This document shows, one piece after another, positions 36,114-42,807 of a stretch of 64,000 bases of DNA. Position 1 is the first letter of the stretch. Each line of letters starts with the position of its first letter. This stretch comes from an uncultured Eubacterium sp. (GTDB taxonomy: Bacteria > Bacillota > Clostridia > Lachnospirales > Lachnospiraceae). The notes under the pieces were generated by a model. It was given only the letters and a program-made list of their open reading frames with translations. It ran no database searches and had not been told where the DNA came from. The DNA lies in contig CAMWXD010000011.1 of the NCBI GenBank assembly GCA_947178105.1, positions 21,169 through 85,168 on the forward strand, read 5' to 3'. Both the position numbers and the translations under genes were made by a program.

Positions 36114-36347
36114 TCACTCATGCCTGTAAAGAAACGGCTCAATTTTCTCGATAAGCACCGCATCCTTAGAAGAATAACATAAAGATAGCGGCTCCGAAAG
36201 ATCTAACGCAAATACTCCAAGTATGGATTTTGCATTTACAACCTTCTGCCCAGATTCCAAGTCGAAATGTGCTTCAAATTGTTCAATAATGTTTACAAAC
36301 TGCTCGATCTGCTTCACATTGTTGAACTTGACATTCACCTGCTGCAT
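36114..36347 (-). CDS. HPr-like protein lacking the phosphorylatable His15
   Basis: A 77-residue HPr-fold protein. The segment VNAKSILGVFALDLSEPL aligns with the regulatory Ser46 region of HPr (VNAKSILGIMSL), but the N-terminal active-site loop (LHARPA in true HPr) is absent; this region reads VKQIEQFVNIIEQFE. It therefore cannot be a PTS phosphocarrier, and resembles the Bacillus Crh situation in which only serine phosphorylation remains. GGAGGGTTTTTC precedes the ATG. Encoded about 125 bases upstream of the LacI-type regulator on the same strand. Confidence 0.82.
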   Translation of the reverse strand: MQQVNVKFNNVKQIEQFVNIIEQFEAHFDLESGQKVVNAKSILGVFALDLSEPLSLCYSSKDAVLIEKIEPFLYRHE

Positions 36348-36480
36348 GAAAAACCCTCCTTTATATATTTGTTATCGATTTCACTTTTCGAAAACATCAT
36401 ACACTCCGAATGCTTATTTGTAAATTGGCATTTCCTACTAATTTTTCATGCACTTTTTGTAGATAATGATGAAATCCATT

Positions 36481-37977
36481 TCACTTTCGTCCCATCAGGC
36501 CTATCAGCTCCTCATCCTCTTTTGCATCTCCTGCCGCAAAGATCTCATGCACCCCGATTCCCAGCCAGCCGCAGATCCTCCTAGCTCCCGCCGCTTTCCC
36601 TGCTTCCGCCGCGACAACCTGCATACAATGCCCTTCAACAAGAAAACGCACCCGATTTCGAAGCCTGTCCGGCAGGAGCCCTGCCGCCTGTGCCGCCTCC
36701 TGCGCACTCCATGGCATATGCCGCGCTTTTAGCAGCGTAATTTTATAGCACCTCCCGCCGTTTTCCCGATACACGAGCATACGTGCATGGTACTTGTGCA
36801 GCAAAGGCTTGAAATGCCCAGCCATCTCTTTCTCTTCATCCAGGCTATGAAAAAACTCTCTTCTCTGCAAACCCTGGCCGCCGCAGAAAAGCACCTGCGC
36901 GCCAGCCGCAAAAACACCCCCGGAAAACAAATGCCAGATCGTGCCGCACCTCTTCTTTGCGTCCGCATACGGAAGTGTCGTTGCAAAAAAAAGAAGCGTC
37001 CCTTCCCTCTCTGCCAGCACCTCCAATGCTTTTTTTACTTCCCCGGATACCTCTCTTTGTTTGGCTGTAAGTCCATTCCTGCCGTAAGAAGGCAGCAGCG
37101 TCCCCTCAATATCCAAAAAAACGGCTTTTGGCCGCCTTGGTATTCGAAACAGCGGAAAAGACCCAAACAACATCTGATTTACCAGACGGCTCCTTCCGCC
37201 GTAAGCCAGATAGCAGGAGCACCGCTTCCTGCGGCACGGCAGTGGCAGCGCCTTAGGTGAAAACGGCTCAGCTTTTTTTGCCGGGCTAAGATTGCAGAGC
37301 CGCACCCTTCCATCCCCTTCTGCAAACAGCCTTCCTCTGCACTGTGCTGCATCTGCCGGATGCGGCTGCAATTCCCGGTAAAAATACGGGTCAATTTCGC
37401 AAAACAGCCGTATCTCTTCTTTTGTATAAACGCGCCCTAACCCATCCATACGATTGACCCACAAATAAATATCTTTTGGAAGCGCCATGCGAAGCTGCCG
37501 CAACAAACCTGCATGTTTCGGCACGCCCACAGCTCCGGCACACAGCGTAACCCCTGCCTGCATAAGCTGACTGCATGTATTGGCAAACTCCGTTACGGTT
37601 GTCATTTCAGGATGAAAGGTTGCCCAAAGGCGCAGCTTGTTTATCTTTCCATTGTTTTTTACAAATAGTTCCAGTGATTTTTCAAGCGAAAAGCTTAAGT
37701 TTGTCTGTGCGCCTGCTGCCTGCGTCCAAGAAAGCGCGCTGATACGCGCCAGCCCTTCCCAATACCATGGATGCACCAGCGCTTCACCATAAGGCGTCAC
37801 CATCACGCCGCAGATCTCCAGCTCCTGCGCCCGCTCTATATACTGATCCACAAAAGAAAACCACTGCTCCCTGTCCTTTGCAAGCTCGTTTCTGGCTGCG
37901 CCATGCTTGGAAAAAGGACAGTATGAGCAGCGGTAATTACAGCTTTTCAGACTGCCTCTGTATAAGGCAATATCCAT
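36481..37977 (-). CDS. STM4011-family radical SAM protein fused to a HAD-type hydrolase
   Basis: A 498-residue fusion. Residues 1 to about 275 match the STM4011 radical SAM family: CNYRCSYCPFSK (Cys 13, 17, 20), VTPYGEALVHPWYW, LWATFHPEM, LPKDIYLWVN, and C-terminal auxiliary cysteines (213, 228, 248, 253, 255; CRRKRCSCYLAYGG) that may hold a second Fe-S cluster. From about 282 a HAD hydrolase follows: AVFLDIEGTLLP, with Glu in place of the usual second Asp, and IFAAGDAKEDEEL near the end. I know of no STM4011 with this partner as standard. Last gene of the STM4012-STM4011 pair; GAGGAGACCGCAT precedes the ATG. Substrate and reaction unknown. Confidence 0.9.
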   Translation of the reverse strand: MDIALYRGSLKSCNYRCSYCPFSKHGAARNELAKDREQWFSFVDQYIERAQELEICGVMVTPYGEALVHPWYWEGLARISALSWTQAAGAQTNLSFSLEKSLELFVKNNGKINKLRLWATFHPEMTTVTEFANTCSQLMQAGVTLCAGAVGVPKHAGLLRQLRMALPKDIYLWVNRMDGLGRVYTKEEIRLFCEIDPYFYRELQPHPADAAQCRGRLFAEGDGRVRLCNLSPAKKAEPFSPKALPLPCRRKRCSCYLAYGGRSRLVNQMLFGSFPLFRIPRRPKAVFLDIEGTLLPSYGRNGLTAKQREVSGEVKKALEVLAEREGTLLFFATTLPYADAKKRCGTIWHLFSGGVFAAGAQVLFCGGQGLQRREFFHSLDEEKEMAGHFKPLLHKYHARMLVYRENGGRCYKITLLKARHMPWSAQEAAQAAGLLPDRLRNRVRFLVEGHCMQVVAAEAGKAAGARRICGWLGIGVHEIFAAGDAKEDEELIGLMGRK

Positions 37978-38010: not shown

Positions 38011-39300
38011 TTACTCCCATGCTTCCATTGCGGCAAGTACTTGCGGAGAAATCAGCATCGGCCCCAGATAATCAGATAATCCCAGCCCTTCCTGCGTCAG
38101 CGCAAGGAAGGTATCGCCGCCTTCTTGTACCTTTTGCTCAACAAATCCTCTGTCCAGCCATGTTTGAAGAACCGGAAAATCCTCCACTGCCCCGCTCCCA
38201 AATGCTTCCTGGTACCTTTCCAAAGAAAGCCCTGGCATAATCAAAAGATGGCGGATCACATAGCGCCGCTTCATCTCTTCTTCGGAAAGCAGGAAGCCAT
38301 GCGTGATCTTGGTATAATCCTGCGTCTGTTCATATTCTTCCAGCCTTGCCAGGCATTGTGCCTGCTGCGTTGCATAAGGGCTGCTAAAATGCAGGTTTCC
38401 AAGATAGCTCCTCCCGCCGCAGCCTAACGCAAGCAGCGTGCCAAACCCGCACTCGCTGTAAGCACGCTTCTGTGGGCTGCGCACAAACCTGCGCATGGAA
38501 TCCTGGCGATAGCCTGCATCCTTTAAAAAAGCGCTCGCCTGCTGATACTGTAAATAAGCCCCGCTTTGATCCCAAACGTCACCGCGCTGCTTTAGCCAGG
38601 CGCCGCGGTTGATATATAGCGGATACAAAAAGATCTCATCCGGCTCAAACGTAAGCGCTTCCTGCAGCGATGCCAGCAGGCTTTCCACCGTCTGCCCCGG
38701 AATCCCGTATATAAAATCAACATTGACACAGGCAAACTCCGCCTCCTTTAATAAATGCAGCGCTTTGCGTGCCTGTTTTGCCTGATGCTGCCGTCCGAGC
38801 GAGCGCAGCTCACTGTCGTGAAAGCTCTGGATCCCCATGCTTACCCTGGTAACGCCTGCCTGTTTTAAAACGCCCAGCTTTGGCGCATCCGTCTGGTTCG
38901 GCGCTGTCTCGATCACAACCTCGCGCTGCCTGGAATACCGGAAATGCCGTTCCAGCATCCCAAACATCTGCTCCAACTGGTTTACTGCCAGACATAAAGG
39001 CGTCCCGCCGCCAATGGCAAGTTCGCCAAACTCTGCCTGCACTGTCTCAAGCAGCCCTTCATACTGCATACACTGGCGCTTTACCGCATCCAGATATCGT
39101 GCGGCGTCCACTTCTCCCTGCCCTGTCACCGAAAACAGATTGCAGTACCCGCATTTCGCCTGGCAAAACGGGATATGCAGGTACAGCCCGTTGCCGCTGC
39201 CTTTCAAAAAATGGATATAGTGCTCCAGCGAGATCCCCTGCAAAGGCCGGTAAGCCGTTTTATGCGGGTAACTATACATATACTGCACATATGGATTCAT
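38011..39300 (-). CDS. STM4012-family radical SAM protein
   Basis: A 429-residue HemW-like radical SAM protein. The N terminus [17 protein letters not shown] is the family's hallmark; the SAM cluster motif is [11 protein letters not shown] (Cys 46, 50, 53), followed by [43 protein letters not shown] and a C-terminal winged-helix region ending [15 protein letters not shown]. This matches STM4012 rather than coproporphyrinogen dehydrogenase. I start at MNPYVQ (AGGGAAG upstream), whose ATG overlaps the chemoreceptor stop (ATGA). STM4011 and STM4013 homologues are in the same locus. The joint reaction is undescribed to my knowledge. Confidence 0.92.
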
Positions 39301-41117
39301 AGCCGAAACTTCCCTGCTTCTGCATTCTGCCGATGGCTCAGCTCTACCAAGTCCTGCGTATCCTCGTTGCATTCGCTGATCGTCTGGGACAGGATCGTCA
39401 TGCTTGCACTCGTTTCCTCGGTAGACGCTGCGTTTTCCTCTACCACGCTGGCAAGGTTATTAACCGAATCGGTCACGATTTCCTTTAGCGAATTTAAAAC
39501 CTCTGTCTGGCTGCCGATTTCCTGTGTCACCTCTTCTACAAGCGCCACCTCCTGGCTCAGGCAACGGAATGCTTCTCTCGTCTCATCTAGGCACTGCTGC
39601 TGCTTTTGCACATTGCCTGTTACTTCCTGCATCTTTTTTACAGATACTTCGACATTTTCGATCAGTTCCTTGACGATCTCTTCGATCTCCTGTGCATTGC
39701 CAGAGGATTCTTCTGAAAGGCTGCGGATCTCTTCCGCCACAACGGCAAACCCCCTGCCTGCCTCTCCGGCTCTTGCAGCCTCAATGCTGGCGTTGAGGGA
39801 AAGCAGGTTTGTCTGCGCCGCCAGCCCCTTGATGATCTCTACCGCCTTGTTGATATTGGCAGCAGAATCGTTGTTTTTATTCGTCTGATGCGATACTGTG
39901 TCGATCGTATCGATCGTCACCCTCGTGATCTGATCCAGCTCCTCAATGCTGCCGGAAGCCGCCTTTGTATGCTGGATCATGGAGCTTACGGTTCCCTCCA
40001 GCTTATTTACGCCGTTCTTTTCGACTTCAATCACGCCGCCCAGCTCTTTGATCTTGTCATTCACAATCTCCGTCTCATTCGCCTGGCTCGTAGCCCCCTG
40101 CGCCAGATCGTCGATTGCCTGGTTCGTATTCTGGATGCTCTCGGAAATATGCCCGAATTTCTCACTGAACTTTTCACTGCTTTCATTCAACGCTTTCCCG
40201 GTATGTACGACACTGCCGAGCATACTTGCCAGAGACTGGCGTACATTGTCCAGTGAACGCGCCATTTCCCCGATCTCATCCGCCCGCCGCAGCAATCTTG
40301 GGCTGACCGCAAAGCTCAAATCCCCGGAAGCCGCCTGCCGCAGGTTGCCTTCGACCATCTTGATGCCCCTGGTAATCCGAAGGCCGCCTATCGTCGAAAT
40401 AATCATAGCCAATACAAGCATCAAAACCGCTGAAACACCATAGATCATAAGCATCCCGGAAAATTCGTCCTCAATGCGTACCTTCATGCTGTCAATCTTG
40501 GCATTCATATCATCCACATAATTTCCCGTAGCGACTGCCCATCCCCACGGCTCAAACATCTGCGCATAAGCGATCTTTGGCGCAACCGTCACGCCGTCGG
40601 ATTTGGTAAAAGAAAATTCCAGATAATCCCCGCCGGATTCTGCCGCAGATACAACGCTCTGCGTCACCTTCACACCGTTTTGGTCGGTCAGCTCACTCCT
40701 GTTTGTCCCTTCCTGTTCCGTCAGGATCGGATGCATGACGAGCATACAATCCTTTCCGTCAATCCAGATATACCCAGACGCATCATCCCGGTAACGCATC
40801 GTACGAACCGCTTCCGCCGCCAGATTTTGCGCATCCTCTGCGGACAGCTCGCCGTTCTGGCTCATGTCATAATACCTCTGAATCACAGCCAGCGCCCCCT
40901 GTACCTGTGATTTGATCTCCATTTTATAGCCGTCTGTCATAGATTCCTCATATAATTCCACAGACTCATTCATCGACTGCCTCAGATAATGTACGCCCAA
41001 AACTGCCAGCCCGACCGTCGGAATGGAAATCATAATAAATATAATCGAAATCAGCATCGCCGTAAGACTTTTGAATCCTTTCGTCCCCTGCGCTTTCGCC
41101 CTATTTTTCTCATCCAT
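39297..41117 (-). CDS. Cache-domain methyl-accepting chemotaxis protein, coupled to STM4012
   Basis: A 606-residue chemoreceptor. Transmembrane helix near 15-38; extracellular single Cache domain ([20 protein letters not shown], then [12 protein letters not shown]); second helix near 225-250 ([18 protein letters not shown]); HAMP; and a long cytoplasmic hairpin with [22 protein letters not shown]. Such sCache_2-type sensors bind small carboxylates or similar ligands. I start at MDEKNRA with GAGGAGGAGTTTG upstream. It interrupts the STM4013-STM4012 gene order but its stop overlaps the STM4012 start, so it is co-translated with the radical SAM genes from its own promoter. Confidence 0.94.
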
Positions 41118-41159
41118 CGAACAAACTCCTCCTCTTTGCTTTTTTCTGTCGACAATTTC

Positions 41160-41187
41160 ATTATACATGATTTCGACTCAAAGTCAA
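41160..41187 (-). promoter_or_regulatory. Promoter upstream of the Cache chemoreceptor gene
   Basis: On the minus strand TTGACT (41182-41187), 16 bases, TATAAT (41160-41165), about 40 bases upstream of the ATG. It would drive the chemoreceptor together with the STM4012 and STM4011 genes. Confidence 0.78.
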
Positions 41188-41256: not shown

Positions 41257-42075
41257 TCACGTTCCATTCTGCAAAAAAAAGTGTTTATATGGGACAATAT
41301 CCACCATCGGATGGCTGATGCCATGATACAGGCAGCCGTCCTCCCCATAACAGGTGCCATGGTCTGAGCAGCAGATTACAAACGCATCTTTCCGCAGGCT
41401 CTTCCACGCATCAAACAGGCGCCCAAGCTGCCCGTCTGCATAGCAAAGCGCTGCTGCATGCGACGCAAGGCTGTCCCTGGACGCCCCCTCGATATAATAA
41501 TAATTTGGATAGTGGATCGCGTCCACATTGACATACAAAAAAATCCTCCGCTCCTTTGGCGCTGCTTCTAATTTCCGCAATAGAAAGTCCACCTGGTTTT
41601 TGGTGCTCTCTTTTACCAGGCATCCAAACGATGGATGCCAGTAGCTTTTTTGAAAATACCCCGGAAAAACCCTGCCAAGATCTGAGCGTTTGTCAAAAAA
41701 AGACACTCCGCCGACACACCACGTATCGTATCCGTCCTGTGCAAGCCCCTCCATAATCGTACTTCCGGAAAATGCATACGCCCCCGCCGGAACCTTCCTG
41801 CGCAGCCCAATCGCCGTCGGGTAAAACAGCATCTCCCGCTGCGCCTGGCATTTCGTGTCATACCTGCACGGCAAAAACCCTGCAAACATCGCGTGATGGG
41901 AAGGATACGTAAAATTGCCCGGCGCCTGGCACTTCACCCACCTGCCATAACGGTTTAATACCGGCGTCAAACCCGCCGCCTCTTGCTGGACTGCCACATC
42001 ATAACGCAGCGTATCCAGGCAGATAAACAGAATATCCAGCGTCCCAACGACCTTGTTCATATCGATTTCACACAC
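41257..42075 (-). CDS. STM4013-family hydrolase (alkaline phosphatase/sulfatase superfamily)
   Basis: A 272-residue protein matching STM4013/SEN3800 hydrolases: DILFICLDTLRYDVA with the metal-binding aspartate (residue about 21), the catalytic-nucleophile region PGNFTYPSHHAMFAGFLP, VGGVSFFDKRSDLGRV, IFLYVNVDAIHYPN, and SDHGTCYGEDGCLYHG. It belongs to the phosphatase/sulfatase fold, expected to hydrolyse a phosphate, phosphonate or sulfate ester. Start appears to be GTG with GAGGATCG upstream, placed in the stop region of the DUF4253 gene; an internal ATG (MNKVV) is an alternative. The co-occurring radical SAM partners suggest a shared substrate, not identified. Confidence 0.9.
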   Translation of the reverse strand: MCEIDMNKVVGTLDILFICLDTLRYDVAVQQEAAGLTPVLNRYGRWVKCQAPGNFTYPSHHAMFAGFLPCRYDTKCQAQREMLFYPTAIGLRRKVPAGAYAFSGSTIMEGLAQDGYDTWCVGGVSFFDKRSDLGRVFPGYFQKSYWHPSFGCLVKESTKNQVDFLLRKLEAAPKERRIFLYVNVDAIHYPNYYYIEGASRDSLASHAAALCYADGQLGRLFDAWKSLRKDAFVICCSDHGTCYGEDGCLYHGISHPMVDIVPYKHFFLQNGT

Positions 42076-42087
42076 TTTATACGATCC

Positions 42088-42807
42088 TCAATCCCACCAG
42101 AAATACCATACGCTCGACTCCGCAAGCCCTGCCGCCAGCTCCGACACCTTGTACGTCCTCGTCCCCTGGTCGATCCGGTCTGTGCAGAAAGCATAATGCT
42201 CCTTCGCAGCTTCCACCGGGTCTTTTCCGTTTAGTCCGTTCGGCGCGTAAAACTCCATCACATCATGGGTAAAGACTGCCGGGATTGCCCCATATTTCTC
42301 ATACCAGTATTTACAGATCGCAATCATCTCATCCGGCGCCGGGCATTCATTCCATCCGCCCATCGGGACGTAAGCAATGATTTCCCACGGATGCTCTACC
42401 GGGATTTCCAACAGCAGCGTATCTGCTTCCAAAGACCCGTCCGTAAAGGAACAGTAGCCGCAAAACTCCCGCAGCACATCGCCTTCCTTTTCCTCTCCGA
42501 TAAAGTCCGCCAGCTCTTCTTCTCCCATCTCCTGCGTATATTCCCCGAACCGTTCCTTTAACAGCTCTTCCCCGCGATCTTCCCATTCCGCAAGAAGCTT
42601 GTCTTTATCATAGTCTGCCTGGATATCCGAAAACCACGCAAGCGCATATTCATCCAAACAGACCAGCGCCGGATAAAAACCGCCCTCCTGCCCGGCTTTC
42701 AGCGCCTCATGGTACGCCTCCTCCAAAAGCTTTGGGTCTGAGCCCTTTTCAAACACTTTATACCCGCATTGAAAACGCTCTGCGATCTGTTTTATTTGAT
42801 CGTTCAT
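42088..42807 (-). CDS. DUF4253-domain protein
   Basis: A 239-residue cytosolic acidic protein. The C-terminal portion LEIPVEHPWEIIAYVPMGGWNECPAPDE followed by ICKYWYEKYGAIPAVFTHDVMEFYAP matches the DUF4253 core seen across bacteria, of unknown function. Its ATG overlaps the stop of the small membrane-protein gene (ATGA) and the STM4013 gene begins 12 bases after its stop, so all three look co-translated. Four residues of W/F at the very end (VWYFWWD) are unusual. No catalytic motif that I recognise. Confidence 0.82.
   Translation of the reverse strand: MNDQIKQIAERFQCGYKVFEKGSDPKLLEEAYHEALKAGQEGGFYPALVCLDEYALAWFSDIQADYDKDKLLAEWEDRGEELLKERFGEYTQEMGEEELADFIGEEKEGDVLREFCGYCSFTDGSLEADTLLLEIPVEHPWEIIAYVPMGGWNECPAPDEMIAICKYWYEKYGAIPAVFTHDVMEFYAPNGLNGKDPVEAAKEHYAFCTDRIDQGTRTYKVSELAAGLAESSVWYFWWD

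Follow-up and report, generated by a model that had tools for sequence, protein, structure and literature searches.

The STM4011–STM4015 protein families and the five-gene cassette that they form are already named in NCBIfam (NF038073, NF006067, NF038075, NF038074, and NF038076). In the literature searched for a function of this cassette, no functional paper was found, and there were two passing mentions only. In Salmonella and Escherichia coli, a HAD protein is encoded separately at the STM4011 end of the cassette. The folds involved are better described. Motif I of enolase-phosphatase E1 (MtnC) contains Asp-x-Glu. HAD-IIB/Cof phosphatases such as BT4131, YidA, and PfHAD1 have a C2-capped fold with a nucleophilic Asp, a Thr, a Lys, and a motif IV acidic residue. 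The second Asp of motif I is the acid/base of HAD phosphatases (PMC8069645), and for the base in HAD enzymes an effect of 10^2–10^4 on dephosphorylation is cited (PMC6321591). The twitch/SPASM domain of radical SAM enzymes such as SkfB, BtrN, and PqqE has also been described (PMC9012708), as has the LysW/LysX carrier chemistry, which uses a C-terminal Glu (PMC4490483).

The window analyzed here, a stretch of 64,000 nucleotides from an uncultured Eubacterium sp., carries part of a cassette of the same five families, in which STM4011 again has a HAD at its end. It differs from the Enterobacteriaceae cassette in that the HAD is fused to STM4011, shortened, and carries Glu at position 291, in that a methyl-accepting chemotaxis protein (MCP) gene is inserted, and in that STM4014 and STM4015 are carried by a different contig. 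The genes and the two domains of the fusion protein are as follows.

36481..37977, minus strand: STM4011::HAD fusion gene, 498 aa, a single open frame from ATG to stop with no internal stop (NF038073; HAD-IIB fold by profile and structure).
37138..37965, minus strand: STM4011 radical SAM domain, residues 5–280 (NF038073; Foldseek matches to viperin-like enzymes and SkfB).
36490..37128, minus strand: HAD-IIB (C2-capped) domain, residues 284–496, short after motif IV, with 10 residues after D488 (Pfam Hydrolase_3; profile match to BT4131, 1ymq, and others; AlphaFold2 model).
38011..39300, minus strand: STM4012-family HemN/HemW-like radical SAM gene (NF006067, 512 bits), its ATG overlapping the stop of the upstream MCP gene (ATGA).
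39297..41168, minus strand: MCP gene between STM4013 and STM4012 (sCache_2 and MCPsignal).
41257..42075, minus strand: STM4013/SEN3800-family hydrolase of the alkaline phosphatase superfamily (NF038075, 385 bits), with Thr at the nucleophile position as read from the translation.

The fusion gene is the last gene of the cassette, and STM4012, the MCP gene, and STM4013 all lie upstream of it on the same strand. The MCP insertion is common only to the nearest relatives (L027, L028, and L067), in the same place. STM4014 and STM4015 were located outside the window, adjacent to each other on contig C87 of the same assembly (G000:C87:15115-17018; L123:4089-6121), which has an estimated contamination of 8%. 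STM4012–STM4015 all accompany the fusion in this assembly, two in the window and two on C87. Most relatives have the five genes arranged as 4015-4014-4013-4012-4011::HAD. On a Bacteroides finegoldii plasmid (L115:5566-5944), the STM4013/STM4012 region is cut to short fragments, and 4015, 4014, and 4011::HAD remain. In another locus (L066:2473-3621), a gene that by eye is AAA-ATPase-like is inserted at the STM4013/STM4012 junction, which seems prone to insertions. Several other neighbors were observed. On C87, STM4014 and STM4015 adjoin a LytTR/GHKL two-component pair, and STM4015 there ends EYNGTIYFNAMLTE. Directly downstream of the fusion gene, at about 36120-36350, a short frame (MQQVNVKFNNVKQIEQFVNIIEQFEAHFDLESGQKVVNAKSILGVFALDLSEPL...) resembles by eye an HPr-type protein; a DUF4253 protein, not found in the related loci compared, is encoded at 42088-42807 immediately upstream of STM4013. 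A DUF6745 gene lies at the cassette edge in Deinococcus, Streptomyces, and Methylobacterium plasmids (L118, L119, and L120), and STM4015 is duplicated in Deinococcus (L118).

The initial annotation of this DNA had read a single frame encoding an STM4011 radical SAM domain and a HAD domain with the motif LDIEGTLLP. Both points stand: the frame runs uninterrupted for 498 residues on the minus strand, which that annotation had not given, and the motif is present, its Glu being E291. The NF038073 model (rSAM_STM4011) scored 284.7 bits over residues 5–280, above its curated cut-off of 200. The HAD models were weak on residues 284–496, where Pfam Hydrolase_3 reached 22.2 bits against a cut-off of 20.9 and TIGR01484 (HAD-IIB) reached 23.5 bits, below its cut-off of 41.8. 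The structure prediction that had been proposed as a check was performed for the whole fusion protein and gave a confident AlphaFold2 model (mean pLDDT 91.7, pTM 0.91). Among PDB structures, the C-terminal half matched C2-capped HAD-IIB phosphatases best, and the N-terminal half matched viperin-like enzymes and the RiPP maturase SkfB (Foldseek). A PDB search with a profile built from 58 sequences likewise retrieved HAD-IIB phosphatases, BT4131 and YidA among them. A search of the fusion protein against a viral structure library returned nothing beyond generic radical SAM or HAD matches.

A scan of genome contigs yielded 80 loci, most of them full-length fusions, and the fusion was found as an unbroken frame in about 75 independent loci, nearly all from Lachnospiraceae. 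Within the same genus, STM4011 scored above the cut-off in 10 of 13 genomes, nine of which have a frame long enough for the HAD. Fused versions were also found on the B. finegoldii plasmid (521 aa) and in two other Bacillota genomes, and several of the fusion-bearing relatives are cultured isolates. STM4011 stands alone in Paenibacillus, Deinococcus, Streptomyces, and Methylobacterium. There is only a negligible chance that an assembly error or frameshift joined two separate genes here. The one relative that would fit such an origin is E. plexicaudatum ASF492, in which the frame is broken in the HAD region and the STM4012 frame is broken as well; against it stand the unbroken fusions, several in cultured isolates, the smooth codon composition along the fusion gene, with even GC3, and the single confident structure model that spans both domains. 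The initial annotation had named an interruption between the domains of related proteins, by frameshift or stop, as the sign of an artefact. None was found: the break in ASF492, the only broken relative, lies within the HAD. Because the same fusion recurs unbroken in about 75 independent loci, chance and artefact can be set aside. The fusion is genuine and old, with the two domains in one conserved polypeptide.

In two Salmonella records and one E. coli strain examined (the latter drawn from the 94 genomes, of 5,426, that matched the query), a separate HAD gene overlaps the STM4011 end. Both separate proteins are annotated as Cof-type hydrolases, and the Salmonella one has the canonical DLDGT. 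Because the fusion recurs in about 75 loci and a separate overlapping HAD occurs in E. coli and Salmonella, the HAD is a recurrent sixth member of the STM4011–STM4015 cassette. The association with STM4011 has seemingly arisen in two ways, as a fusion and as a separate gene, which supports a shared pathway. Orthology between the fused HAD and the separate Salmonella HAD was considered and not supported, the Salmonella protein lying nearer to generic Cof HADs in another Cof branch. The membership of the HAD in the cassette pathway, shown by the fusion, is a pointer to a phosphorylated intermediate. The initial annotation had proposed that the fusion links two activities and hints at a phosphorylated product or intermediate; the link is conserved and gains support from the separate HAD after STM4011 in Salmonella and E. 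coli, and the phosphorylated intermediate is plausible, though unproven.

The cysteines of the radical SAM domain fall into two groups.

37918..37941, minus strand: radical SAM cluster motif CX3CX2C (C13, C17, and C20), invariant in 99 of 99 aligned rows.
37213..37341, minus strand: twitch/SPASM-like cysteines C213-x9-G-x4-C228-x19-C248-x4-C253-x-C255, kept in 98–99 of 99 rows, in fused and stand-alone proteins alike.

The Gly of the second motif is G223 (C213-x9-G223-x4-C228). We take the spacing from C213 to C255 to fit the twitch/SPASM auxiliary-cluster signature (C-x9-15-G-x4-C plus further cysteines), the domain name being presumed from family knowledge. With this signature, the five cysteines form a putative auxiliary Fe-S cluster site. 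The protein thus resembles SkfB, BtrN, and PqqE in its CX3CX2C motif, its C-x9-G-x4-C motif, and its further C-terminal cysteines, with SkfB also among the Foldseek matches, but differs from them in its C-terminal HAD; no gene for a precursor peptide was noticed. The extra C-terminal cysteines pointed out previously are indeed there; they are a family-wide trait of STM4011 and not special to the fusion protein.

The HAD motifs were placed as follows.

37099..37113, minus strand: motif I, D289-I-E291-G-T293, with E291 at the acid/base position and D289 present in 80 of 80 fused HADs.
36979..36981, minus strand: motif II, T333, kept in 76 of 77 aligned fusions.
36595..36597, minus strand: motif III, K461, kept in 76 of 77 aligned fusions.
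36514..36531, minus strand: motif IV, G483-D484-x-x-E487-D488, with D488 in 76 of 77 and D484 being D or N.

Compared with HAD phosphatases, the fusion protein therefore has the nucleophile Asp (D289), the Ser/Thr residue (T333), the Lys (K461), and the motif IV acidic residues (D484 and D488), but E291 in place of the second motif I Asp. As a family, the fused HADs share the fold and these residues with the HAD-IIB/Cof phosphatases, whereas they have no conserved second motif I Asp, mostly lack the segment after motif IV, and are joined to a radical SAM domain. D289 is invariant in the 77 aligned fusions. Position 291, by comparison, takes six states among 80 full-length fused HADs: D (37), E (25), A (5), Q (5), M (4), and V (4). 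It changed at least 25 times on the radical SAM domain tree and at least 24 times on a two-domain tree built without column 291, on which the median per HAD site is 26, and 14 of the events are switches between acidic and non-acidic residues. On the same two-domain tree there were no changes at 289 and one each at 333, 461, and 488; K412 also stayed within 0–1 changes over 80 sequences. The variation is confined to 62 members, 44 with an acidic residue and 18 with A, Q, M, or V, and all of the other 18, deeper-branching fusions carry D291. Among the 18 non-acidic members, 17 retain T333, K461, D484, E487, and D488, the exception being the degenerate L063. N484 occurs almost only together with D291, in few independent pairs.

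These distributions bear on the suggestion that the D-to-E change is like that of the enolase-phosphatases and may alter the chemistry. The Asp-x-Glu of this fusion protein does match motif I of E1; however, there is no family-level similarity beyond it, the closest folds are C2-capped HAD-IIB proteins, and a profile search of the fusion protein against enolase-phosphatase models gave no match at 0.01. Because position 291 changes at about the median rate of the domain and may be D, E, A, Q, M, or V in relatives, with Glu never fixed, DIEGT is out as an enolase-phosphatase signature, and the D-to-E change is one state of a freely varying position. The position is not wholly indifferent, since acidic residues are still found in 44 of the 62 derived members.

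Selection on the HAD domain was estimated from dN/dS (NG86), which ranged from 0.11 to 0.45; an E/A pair and an M/V pair gave 0.31 and 0.25, respectively. Because the ratio stays within this range even for the E/A and M/V pairs, the HAD is constrained. It was higher than that of the radical SAM domain in 18 of the 19 pairs computable for both, and, judged from these substitutions, the HAD domain is under purifying selection but less constrained than the radical SAM part. The HAD usually ends 5–25 residues past D488, and the segment after motif IV is missing in most members. Stand-alone STM4011 proteins are nested inside the fused clade (e.g., L104, L105, and L106), so the HAD was lost more than once; with the domain lost in several lineages, it is not indispensable. 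In one locus, an additional complete HAD gene (DYDGT) lies between STM4013 and STM4012 (L049:2684-3514), and the fused HAD there has Q at the acid/base position.

The remaining cassette proteins offer a candidate target. STM4015 is a leucine-rich-repeat protein of ~300 aa with one close solved homologue (2RA8), and it ends in Glu in 70 of 71 sequences; the remaining one comes from a gene that is interrupted ahead of the tail. The most frequent last residue reaches 9 of 72 in STM4014, 47 of 79 in STM4013, and 44 of 90 in STM4012. In most Lachnospiraceae, the STM4015 tail reads ...(Y/W)xGx(I/L)(Y/W)xxAMLTE; elsewhere it is NAMYTE (Salmonella), PMITE (Bacteroides), PSLTE (Paenibacillus), VALGE (Deinococcus), VAVAE (Streptomyces), or IAVSE (Methylobacterium). 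The STM4015 model shows a confident repeat fold, at the end of which the final nine residues are predicted with lower confidence (pLDDT about 67). In L099 (L099:600-900), the STM4015 frame is interrupted by stops ahead of its tail (VDV*DGIGPGEEYD*YNDFFIALLTE), and STM4011 of that locus also has no HAD. The invariance of the C-terminal Glu suggests that the STM4015 C-terminus is modified or loaded. Beside the ATP-grasp protein STM4014, it recalls the LysW carrier with its LysX/ArgX ATP-grasp ligase, by analogy only: STM4015 is a ~300-aa leucine-rich-repeat protein and no small carrier, and STM4014 showed no RimK/LysX match. As a candidate RimK/LysX homologue, STM4014 found no PDB profile support, with only weak matches to biotin-carboxylase-type chains. 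The Thr of STM4013 sits where sulfatases have the formylglycine precursor, which suggests that the reaction is of the phosphohydrolase type and not that of a sulfatase. Because the cassette has two phosphate-handling folds, the HAD and STM4013, a phosphorylated intermediate is indicated.

Because all catalytic residues are kept except the acid/base one, the fused HAD probably handles a phosphorylated partner in a manner unlike ordinary phosphatases. Our preferred reading, held tentatively, is that it serves as a phospho-ligand-binding or phosphoryl-accepting module without the turnover of an ordinary phosphatase, in a cassette that modifies the STM4015 C-terminus. We infer that a phosphoryl group is bound or transferred, and we likewise infer what STM4015 does and in which order the steps occur. 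The cassette would build or attach a modification on the C-terminus of STM4015, with STM4014 ligating or activating, STM4012 and STM4011 performing radical chemistry, and STM4013 taking off a phosphate-type group. The fused HAD would bind the phosphorylated substrate and at most accept the phosphoryl group on Asp289 beside the radical SAM site, holding or positioning the substrate for that site. Without a dedicated base, a phospho-aspartate on D289 would be slow to hydrolyse, and a hydrolytic acid/base at 291 would no longer be needed. Against such a non-hydrolysing HAD, a water-activating residue could be supplied by the cap, and the deeper-branching D291 fusions may be ordinary phosphatases. 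The acidic residues at 291 in most derived members, the losses of the HAD, the missing RimK/LysX match of STM4014, and the placement of STM4014 and STM4015 on a second contig also weigh against this reading.

It is also possible, if rather doubtful, that the protein is a bifunctional enzyme whose HAD is a working phosphatase, removing phosphate from what the radical SAM domain produces or else generating the substrate of that domain. E291 would then serve as the acid/base, as the Glu does in enolase-phosphatase, and non-acidic relatives would draw on another proton donor from the cap or the partner domain. The intact nucleophile, Thr, Lys, and motif IV acidic residues would suit this, as would D or E at 291 in 62 of the 80 fused HADs, the Cof-type annotation of the separate Salmonella and E. 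coli proteins with the canonical Salmonella DLDGT, and the sugar-phosphate phosphatases among the nearest solved relatives; yet nearly all of the derived members with A, Q, M, or V are otherwise intact, position 291 turns over at the domain median, and the segment past motif IV is gone in most fusions. That last feature, the truncated HAD C-terminus, would also fit a decaying passenger, retained chiefly because it helps STM4011 to fold or stay stable once the original phosphatase step had disappeared or passed to another enzyme. Such decay would agree with the repeated outright loss of the HAD within the fused clade, with its higher dN/dS, and with the extra complete HAD gene in L049, but it is unlikely given the 0–1 changes at D289, T333, K412, K461, and D488 over 80 sequences and a dN/dS well under 1 even between members bearing A, M, and V. 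More speculatively still, and with little expectation that it is right, STM4015 might be a carrier whose C-terminal Glu is loaded by STM4014 and on which the radical SAM pair builds the product, while the HAD forms a phosphoaspartate without hydrolysing it, in a P-type-ATPase-like logic, and so gates a phosphorylated intermediate or delivers it to the radical SAM site. If that is true, the cassette would represent a carrier-protein pathway of a new class.

In the literature searched, no description was found of the fusion, of the free acid/base position, or of the invariant STM4015 C-terminus. The cassette ranges over E. coli, Salmonella, Bacteroides, Paenibacillus, Deinococcus, Streptomyces, Methylobacterium, and gut Lachnospiraceae. 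Its fused clade is a natural experiment, in which a HAD has kept its nucleophile and not its acid/base residue, and the invariant C-terminal Glu of STM4015 offers a concrete guess, checkable by mass spectrometry, at the modification target of the cassette.
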